A stretch of 64,000 nucleotides of DNA from Betaproteobacteria bacterium (lineage in GTDB: Bacteria > Pseudomonadota > Gammaproteobacteria > Burkholderiales > Rhodocyclaceae), in NCBI GenBank assembly GCA_016234745.1, contig JACRAR010000002.1, positions 1 through 64,000 of the forward strand, in the 5' to 3' direction. The position numbers and the translations under genes are program-made. Below, piece by piece: positions 61,855 to 63,746 of the stretch. Below the pieces are notes generated by a model that was not told the DNA's origin, made no database searches, and saw only the letters and a list, made by a program, of their open reading frames with translations. How positions within the stretch are numbered: the first letter of the stretch is position 1; every line of letters begins with the position of its first letter.

Positions 61855-62026
61855 GATCGAAAATACAGAAGCCTACCAGCTATTTGTCATAAGGCTGGCA
61901 ACGACGACACCGGCAAATTCTATGTATGTTGCTGTCACAGTCACTTGCCGCGCGCCACCCTTTCCGGCACAATTCGCGTCGTTGTGTCACGGGTAGCGGT
62001 TCCCGAAATCCATCCAGGAGTATGAC

Positions 62027-62230
62027 GTGCAACACACGCGTGCCTACACCGACAGATTACACAAGCTGCAGCCCGTAGCGGTGATGTCCCCGCGTGCGTT
62101 GCCATGCGCGCTTGGTATGTCACCCGTTTGCCCGATTAGTGCATCCGCCCAGTTATACGAGCACACTCGCGAGCGGCGCAACGGCTGGAACGGATACGCA
62201 ACAAAAAGCATCCGGGAGAGAAATGGATAG
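62027..62230 (+). CDS. Possible 67-residue leader ORF
   Basis: GTG start with AGGAG (62016-62020) 6 bases upstream, the best ribosome site in this stretch. The protein (starting MQHTRAYTDRLHKLQ) is not recognised. Its end lies inside the structured leader, covering the 62208-62216 antiterminator strand, so its translation could control the terminator. May be noncoding. Confidence 0.4.
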   Translation: MQHTRAYTDRLHKLQPVAVMSPRALPCALGMSPVCPISASAQLYEHTRERRNGWNGYATKSIRERNG

Positions 62231-62305
62231 CCTAGCCCGACAGACCGAAAGGTCTCAGGCCACGAGGCCCGGATGCTCCGAAAGGACTCCGGGCCTCGTG
62301 CTTTT
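62208..62305 (+). promoter_or_regulatory. Terminator/antiterminator leader upstream of the hypothetical gene
   Basis: A 13-bp perfect stem CACGAGGCCCGGA (62261-62273)/TCCGGGCCTCGTG (62288-62300) with an inner TCC-GAAA-GGA tip is followed by CTTTT, a strong intrinsic terminator 36 bases before the start at 62341. GCATCCGGG (62208-62216) is exactly complementary to CCCGGATGC (62268-62276), which overlaps the terminator stem, so the two pairings are mutually exclusive. A GNRA hairpin (AGACC-GAAA-GGTCT, 62242-62255) lies between. This is attenuator or riboswitch-like architecture; the signal is unknown. Confidence 0.7.
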
Positions 62306-62340
62306 CAAGGTCCCGGCCGCTTATAGAAAAGGATGACATC

Positions 62341-62979
62341 ATGGGAATGTTCGATTACCTGAAGTGCAAATATCCATTGCCTGATGCCGGCGATAACGAT
62401 CTGGAATACCAGACCAAGGACACGCCGGCACAGTTTCTGGACAACTACGAAATCCGCGCGGACGGCTCTTTGTGGCACCTGGACTACGATATCGAGGACA
62501 GGAGCGACCCGAATGCCGAGGGACTCGCTCGCCTGGTCGGCAGGCTAAGCCGCGTCAACAAGCGCTGGGAGCCGGTGCCGATTACTGGTGAGATCCGCTT
62601 CTACTGCTACGTCGGCGAAAACCAGGGCACCGAGTTCTCGGCTTACTTCGTGAACGGCATGCTGAATTTCCTGACGCCGATCGGAAAGGAGACCATCTCC
62701 GTGAAGACGCGAGTGAAGCTGCGTTCCGGCCGCGAAGCGGAAGTGGAACCGGCCAAGGGCATCCACGGCATACTGCTGTTTTCCGGAGCAGGCGACGGGT
62801 ACGTCCTGCGCGTGCGTCACGGAGCTGAGTTTCGGGACTACCGACTGGCCCAATCTGACATGGAAGTCCGCATAGTCAATAACGAGGCTTTCTTCTATCG
62901 TGCAGGGGATGACTTCTGGCTTGATCATGCGCCGGAGACGCTGGGATTGGAGACCGTGAACGTGGTGGAAGGCGCATGA
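62341..62979 (+). CDS. Hypothetical protein of a mobile-element type
   Basis: 212 residues starting MGMFDYLKCKYPLPDAG. The first ~110 residues (YQTKDT, LWHLDYDIEDRSDPNAEGL, TGEIRFYCY, FSAYFVNGML) form a compact domain I associate with plasmid and integrative-element proteins of unknown function. The C-terminal ~90 residues are beta-rich and unassigned. It lies directly downstream of the attenuator-like leader and before the toxin-antitoxin genes. No enzyme motif seen. Confidence 0.7.
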   Translation: MGMFDYLKCKYPLPDAGDNDLEYQTKDTPAQFLDNYEIRADGSLWHLDYDIEDRSDPNAEGLARLVGRLSRVNKRWEPVPITGEIRFYCYVGENQGTEFSAYFVNGMLNFLTPIGKETISVKTRVKLRSGREAEVEPAKGIHGILLFSGAGDGYVLRVRHGAEFRDYRLAQSDMEVRIVNNEAFFYRAGDDFWLDHAPETLGLETVNVVEGA

Positions 62980-63036: not shown

Positions 63037-63402
63037 ATGCGTGAAGATCACGGATTAGCCAATCTGCTAGACCTACACGATCAGATCATTGATCAGGACG
63101 GTGGCTATTGGGTGAAGATCGAGGCTTGGCGTGTCGAGGTAACTGAAGACGTTCCGCACGGAGTCCGTTATTCCCTGACGCTCCACGAGCCTTACGGAAA
63201 GCGGATTCTGGGATACGACAACGCTCATGCGGTAAAACCGCCGAAGAAGTTCAAGTATGCCGGGCAGCGACTGACCTACGATCACAAGCACCGGCATGTG
63301 AGCGACAAAGGCTTGCCCTATGAGTTTCAGGATGCACAGCAACTCCTGATCGACTTTTTCAACGAAGTCGACCGGGTTCTGAAGGAGGCAAGACAGAAAT
63401 GA
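63037..63402 (+). CDS. DUF6516/TumE-like toxin
   Basis: 121 residues, no Shine-Dalgarno sequence. The order WVKIEAWRVEVTEDVPHGVRYSLTLHEPYGKRILGYDNAH, then HKHRHV and FNEVDRVLKEARQK resembles DUF6516 toxins (TumE family), which are paired with an HTH antitoxin. It overlaps the next gene by 4 bases (ATGA). The toxic mechanism is not known to me. Confidence 0.65.
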   Translation: MREDHGLANLLDLHDQIIDQDGGYWVKIEAWRVEVTEDVPHGVRYSLTLHEPYGKRILGYDNAHAVKPPKKFKYAGQRLTYDHKHRHVSDKGLPYEFQDAQQLLIDFFNEVDRVLKEARQK

Positions 63403-63746
63403 AAGCCATCGTGATCGGCATCATGCCGCAGGACAAGATTCGGGAGCGGGTCTTGTCGATTGCTCGCGGCGAACACAAACCAAAGTCAGGCGAACCGAAA
63501 ATCTGGTTTACCTCAATGCGCTCTCTTGCCGAGGTGTTGAGCGATGAGAATCGCGCGTTGCTTCAGGTGATCAAGGAGACGAATCCGCAGTCCATCACGT
63601 CCTTGGCAGCGACGACTGGACGCAAGCCCGGCAATTTATCGCGCACCCTCAAGACCATGTCGAATTACGGTATCGTCGAAATGAAACGCGAGCGCAACCA
63701 TGTGCGTCCTGTTGCCAAAGCGACCGAATTCAGGATTGTTGCTTGA
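63399..63746 (+). CDS. TumA-like HTH antitoxin/transcriptional regulator
   Basis: 115 residues. A winged helix-turn-helix region runs about residues 50-95 (RALLQVIKETNPQSITSLAATTGRKPGNLSRTLKTM), followed by a basic wing (EMKRERNHVRPVAK). It matches the HTH protein that follows DUF6516 toxins. It would bind the palindromes upstream of 63037. ATGA overlap with the toxin; terminator follows. Confidence 0.7.
   Translation: MKAIVIGIMPQDKIRERVLSIARGEHKPKSGEPKIWFTSMRSLAEVLSDENRALLQVIKETNPQSITSLAATTGRKPGNLSRTLKTMSNYGIVEMKRERNHVRPVAKATEFRIVA

Follow-up and report, generated by a model that had tools for sequence, protein, structure and literature searches.

The plasmid operon of Anabaena which carries 26 tRNA genes is off in normal growth and is induced by translation-targeting antibiotics, and the rtcB gene of Anabaena is under the same TrcR repressor (PMC10272220). 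The rtcBA and rsr-yrlBA-rtcBA operons are controlled by RtcR and sigma-54 and are induced by damaged tRNA (PMC7790460). Units of tRNA arrays were also described on plasmids, mobile elements and phages, where an antidefence role has been suggested (PMC5966550, PMC12803027). The leader family analyzed here resembles the first system in the silent plasmid tRNA array along with rtcB, shares RtcB, Rsr and Y RNA genes with the second, and resembles the third in the extra tRNA gene clusters on plasmids and mobile elements. The control is different, as the Anabaena trn operon is governed by a DNA-binding ribbon-helix-helix repressor and the RtcR operons are controlled at initiation by RtcR, while here an RNA leader is found and sigma-70-like promoters, recognized as sigma-70-like hexamers upstream of the leaders, precede the attenuator. 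In architecture, the leaders are like the leader-peptide attenuators of the trp/his/ilv type, with a short translated ORF, an antiterminator that competes with the terminator and a stop codon placed so that the terminating ribosome would mask the antiterminator strand. They differ from the trp/his/ilv type in having a longer ORF (29-108 codons across the family), in using nearly all amino acids with no regulatory codon run, and in having tRNA arrays and RNA repair genes downstream rather than amino-acid biosynthesis. Judged from sequence, the family appears to work like a leader-peptide attenuator but lacks specificity for one amino acid. No leader attenuator for tRNA arrays or rtcB operons was described in the literature searched; most subscription papers were outside this search, so the absence of such an account is not a proof of novelty.

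The window, the whole analyzed stretch of 64,000 nucleotides from a Rhodocyclaceae genome, possesses one such leader on the forward strand. The Shine-Dalgarno sequence AGGAG (62016-62020) is followed by a leader ORF of 67 codons (62027-62230) with GTG start and TAG stop (62228-62230), and the stop lies just past the antiterminator strand AGCATCCGGG (62207-62216). Within this strand, GCATCCGGG (62208-62216) pairs with CCCGGATGC (62268-62276), forming 10 bp when A62207-T62277 is counted. A GNRA hairpin, AGACC-GAAA-GGTCT, is predicted at 62242-62255. The terminator is composed of a 5' arm (62261-62273), an inner tetraloop mini-hairpin TCC-GAAA-GGA at the tip (62277-62286) and a 3' arm (62288-62300) followed by the short U-tract CTTTTC (to 62306), and the region 62268-62277 is common to the terminator and the antiterminator pairing. 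The ORF with a good ribosome site, the nine-base segment able to pair with the terminator 5' arm and the GNRA hairpin, all pointed out in the earlier note, were found as described. The 13-bp terminator stem (62261-62273/62288-62300) was likewise present, though its distance to the gene start (ATG, 62341) is 40 nt and not 36 as that note had given. This terminator was not called in a standard consensus terminator scan because its T-tract is short, a weak point of the attenuator reading. A candidate sigma-70-type promoter, TTGCCG-17-CACAAT (61945-61973), matches the consensus at 8 of 12 positions, which is below the scan threshold. It is situated 82 nt 5' of the leader start, a position matching the better promoters of related leaders such as that of a Pandoraea plasmid (TTGACA-16-TATAAT, 79 nt upstream). 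Two features by which an attenuator is judged are thus seen in the window leader, a translatable ORF with a ribosome site before a terminator and mutually exclusive antiterminator and terminator.

The leader is likely to be a translation-dependent transcription attenuator which senses general failure of translation and switches on tRNA replacement and RNA repair. RNA polymerase would transcribe the leader containing the 67-codon ORF. During untroubled translation, the ribosome at the stop codon would cover the antiterminator strand, the terminator would form and the downstream gene at 62341, here called gene X, would stay off. A shortage of charged or intact tRNAs, or a block of translation, would make the ribosome stall earlier and leave the strand free to pair with the terminator 5' arm, allowing the polymerase to read through. 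Any failing tRNA, or a general inhibition, could stall the leader ribosome and free the strand in this way. That translation blocks the antiterminator and leads to termination had been proposed before and is the best-supported reading, the comparative evidence for it being covariation and the conserved stop position.

The window leader region is more stably folded than shuffled sequences (z -4.6). When the 5' strand is left free in fold computations, the antiterminator has a probability of 0.92 and dominates until about 62290, before the 3' arm has emerged; completion of the 3' arm turns the fold to the terminator (0.98). Even a free antiterminator strand loses to the terminator at equilibrium, and therefore antitermination would need a kinetic decision, as in classical attenuators.

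The whole leader along with gene X is kept in five Rhodocyclaceae MAG loci (L008-L012, with identical AGGAG) and in the family genomes L182 and L183. Another copy, in G025, carries an IS630-type element (L007:7467-8657) inserted at CTAG, corresponding to window positions 62232-62235 between antiterminator strand and terminator. The leader ORF of this copy has a 2-bp frameshift and its gene X is truncated, so it represents a decayed copy. A DNA search of the order Burkholderiales, which here includes Rhodocyclaceae, found terminator and antiterminator before different genes. Absence of covariation in homologues had been named in the earlier note as one part of what would refute the attenuator, and the antiterminator was found to covary with the terminator arm, leaving the attenuator reading unrefuted. 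The pairs GCATCCGGG/CCCGGATGC, GTATCCGGG/CCCGGATAC, GTCTCCGGG/CCCGGAGAC and CAATTCGGG/CCCGGGTTG illustrate this, with exchanges of A-U to C-G and of U-A to C-G in the antiterminator columns. The three bases 5' of the TCCGGG motif form 1.79 pairs with their own terminator vs 0.93 with those of others (p 5e-5, 24 leaders), and the observed percentage paired and covariation score are reached by 2-4 of 500 shuffles, the leaders being counted with no control for phylogeny. The terminator stem likewise covaries across leaders, counted in the same way. The antiterminator covariation seen in these alignments is strong but not final. The GNRA hairpin stem also changes, from GACC/GGTC to GATC/GATC in G141.

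Covariance model R1 matched 41 genomes among 399 of Burkholderiales. Three matches in the order with similar scores (L048, L055 and L057) were rejected as plain terminators, and one at a contig edge (L050) was excluded. Matches outside the order were plain terminators and served as negative control (n=28). At least two tRNAs or RtcB were present within 1.5 kb in 17 of 22 in-order loci, none of them used in training R1 and all chosen as R1 matches also showing the antiterminator segment, compared to 0 of 28 matches outside the order. The probability of this association is about 3e-9 by the analyst's hypergeometric count, in which the loci are not independent. The largest arrays were found behind the leaders of G285 (26 tRNAs, for nearly every amino acid) and G076 (20 tRNAs with RtcB among them), followed by G334 (9), G320 (8), G397a, G306a and G245 (6 each), G209 and G215b (5), G443 and G314 (4) and G250 (3). 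RtcB without an array follows the leader in G393a, G215c, G306b, G081b, G082 and G397b, while in G310b an HNH gene precedes RtcB. In G141 the order is tRNA-Pro, Ro60/TROVE, tRNA-His, tRNA-Glu, RtcB and HNH. Several genomes (G215, G397 and G306) have two leaders, one before an array and the other before RtcB. The same layout of promoter, ORF (108 codons, annotated as hypothetical), leader and then 12 tRNA genes occurs on the Pandoraea conjugative plasmid, and three further independent Rhodocyclaceae leaders precede HNH and RtcB (L187), tRNAs and RtcB (L188) and nine tRNAs (L190). As the outputs of the family are tRNA arrays, the RNA ligase RtcB, Ro60/Rsr and HNH proteins, the response would be tRNA replacement or repair. 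Counting against this, neither tRNA nor RtcB was found within 1.5 kb behind three leaders (G081a, G210a and G364; L032, L066 and L071). Short unrelated-looking ORFs lie there, with an ABC-F ATPase, on the analyst's reading of the sequence, about 450 nt downstream of the G364 leader. No match to the leader was found in phage and viral collections.

Some other observations were made around these loci. In G334 (L029:11019-11153), a YrlA Y RNA and a TROVE gene are located near the leader and tRNA array, beside a tmRNA gene. The leader was not found upstream of long RtcB genes (about 480 aa). A different, shorter attenuator-like leader, with an ORF of 8-17 codons, a Shine-Dalgarno sequence and a hairpin, directly precedes about 7 of 40 rtcB genes examined (L143, L146, L147, L150, L154, L157 and L166); these rtcB genes are chromosomal and most of the leaders have a GC-rich terminator. 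An attenuator-like leader also precedes an unknown ORF starting MVYAEQQRERYVSVFD in G285 (L166:1577-1679).

The position of the stop codon is the second comparative feature. In all 22 class-1 leaders, an ORF with 29 or more codons has its stop 16-25 nt after TCCGGG, a range chosen after the data were seen, while 3.3 such leaders were expected from dinucleotide shuffles (P about 3e-19, with no control for phylogeny). The window stop lies 17 nt after the motif, and the offsets 17, 18, 19, 21 and others represent all three frames, with TAG, TAA and TGA all used. Hence the position of termination is kept and not a peptide or nucleotide motif. A ribosome at such a stop would cover TCCGGG, given the ribosome footprint. 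The fixed distance is not shared by five longer-spaced leaders (G209, G245, G334, G392 and Pandoraea), where the stop is 40-48 nt from the start of the antiterminator strand and an extra hairpin lies in between. In these the terminating ribosome would not cover the antiterminator strand, which speaks against the attenuator reading.

The same region can be read with the opposite polarity. Expression would then need leader translation: an upstream hairpin would hold the antiterminator strand until a passing ribosome opens it, and healthy translation would keep the operon on. Hairpins of the GGGAG...CTCC type are visible around the stop codon in many leaders, and the antiterminator strand of the full-length window leader is predicted to pair elsewhere in the absence of translation. 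Against this, the stop is placed such that a ribosome terminating there would cover the strand. The antiterminator is also predicted to form in an untranslated leader which ends at 62281, before the 3' arm, with the strand free, and the downstream genes suit induction by translation failure. We consider this polarity improbable. A still smaller chance is given to a ligand- or protein-binding RNA, that is a riboswitch or the site of an antiterminator protein, with the ORF incidental. The stable fold and the GNRA hairpin agree with it, as does a weak similarity in shape to sX12, an sRNA of Xanthomonas, although that similarity (E 0.13) is far under the gathering score and was rejected. An aptamer would be expected to be constant, but the interval between antiterminator and terminator varies in sequence and length across leaders, and the stop position is conserved in every frame. 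In Rfam scans, only tRNA, tmRNA, permuted tmRNA and YrlA reached the gathering score, all elsewhere than at the leader, and a permissive scan gave no acceptable match there, in agreement with the earlier note, which did not recognize a named RNA motif in it. A glycine riboswitch, suspected from GGGAGA/CCGAAAGG/TCTCAGGC, had no support from Rfam and was rejected.

Returning to the attenuator, the leader peptide itself is not conserved, with a pooled pN/pS of 0.97 among the Rhodocyclaceae copies, and protein conservation was therefore rejected as a sign of coding. None of the six intact Rhodocyclaceae copies compared has a stop interrupting the leader frame, and the two alternative frames carry stops; by itself the open frame is weakly significant (P 0.055 vs random nonsense). 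An open frame with an unconstrained peptide is what a leader ORF would be expected to show rather than a functional small protein. Nearly every leader ORF contains 17-20 different amino acids, a diversity higher than in segments of real genes (combined Z 5.0) and in codon-position shuffles (Z 4.6), where the start codons of several leaders were picked by the analyst among candidates. An excess of distinct codons was also tried and rejected, as it vanishes against shuffles (Z 0.87). No run of one regulatory codon was found in any leader ORF examined. Sampling nearly all amino acids with no single-residue run, the ORF would sense a general failure of tRNA supply or translation. A stand-alone small gene or sRNA with an ordinary terminator, followed by a gene X with its own promoter, would look similar, and GC-rich terminators are common in a control scan, but this is very unlikely given the unconserved peptide, an antiterminator strand and covariation that would have no role, the recurrence of tRNA arrays and RtcB behind the leaders, and the promoter scan, which found no sigma-70-like promoter between terminator and gene X.

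Gene X (62341-62979, forward strand) is the putatively regulated gene of the window and encodes 212 aa, of which the N-terminal part is similar to phrog_1615, a family of unknown function. Neither gene X nor the leader peptide matched a family in Pfam and NCBIfam, and the predicted structure of gene X is poor (mean pLDDT 45). A homologue in an Acidobacteria MAG (L013:3001-5916) lies within a 19-tRNA array, immediately ahead of a Ro60/TROVE gene, which ties gene X to the same class of loci by an independent route. Against a role in tRNA repair, neither a tRNA array nor RtcB is present downstream of the leader at the window locus itself. Behind gene X, a TumE-like toxin and an HVO_A0114/HTH partner are found at 63037-63746. 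A second gene with no assigned function, gene Y (286 aa), follows gene X in Rhodocyclaceae relatives and is missing in the window; in L008-L010 it sits between gene X and the TumE-like/HTH pair.

Taken to the family as a whole, the chance is about even that this is a widespread, undescribed RNA switch of Burkholderiales, with a non-conserved leader ORF serving as a general gauge of tRNA supply. Depletion or cleavage of tRNAs, such as that caused by anticodon nucleases in conflicts between phage and host, would then switch on the arrays together with RtcB and Ro60, and genes X and Y would be new members of the response. The elements, their conservation and covariation, the stop position and the association with the downstream genes are seen in the sequences, while we infer the signal and the polarity, as well as any part played by gene X in tRNA replacement or repair. 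Through its setting of tRNA arrays and RNA repair, the window leader gains interest well beyond that of one isolated attenuator. The switch probably lets bacteria or mobile elements replace damaged tRNAs. If so, the silent tRNA arrays of mobile elements would be made when host tRNAs fail, which would explain both their control and their purpose. The leader would serve as a marker for finding more RNA-repair genes, including uncharacterized ones like gene X, and leader-peptide attenuation would be extended from single amino acids to translation as a whole.
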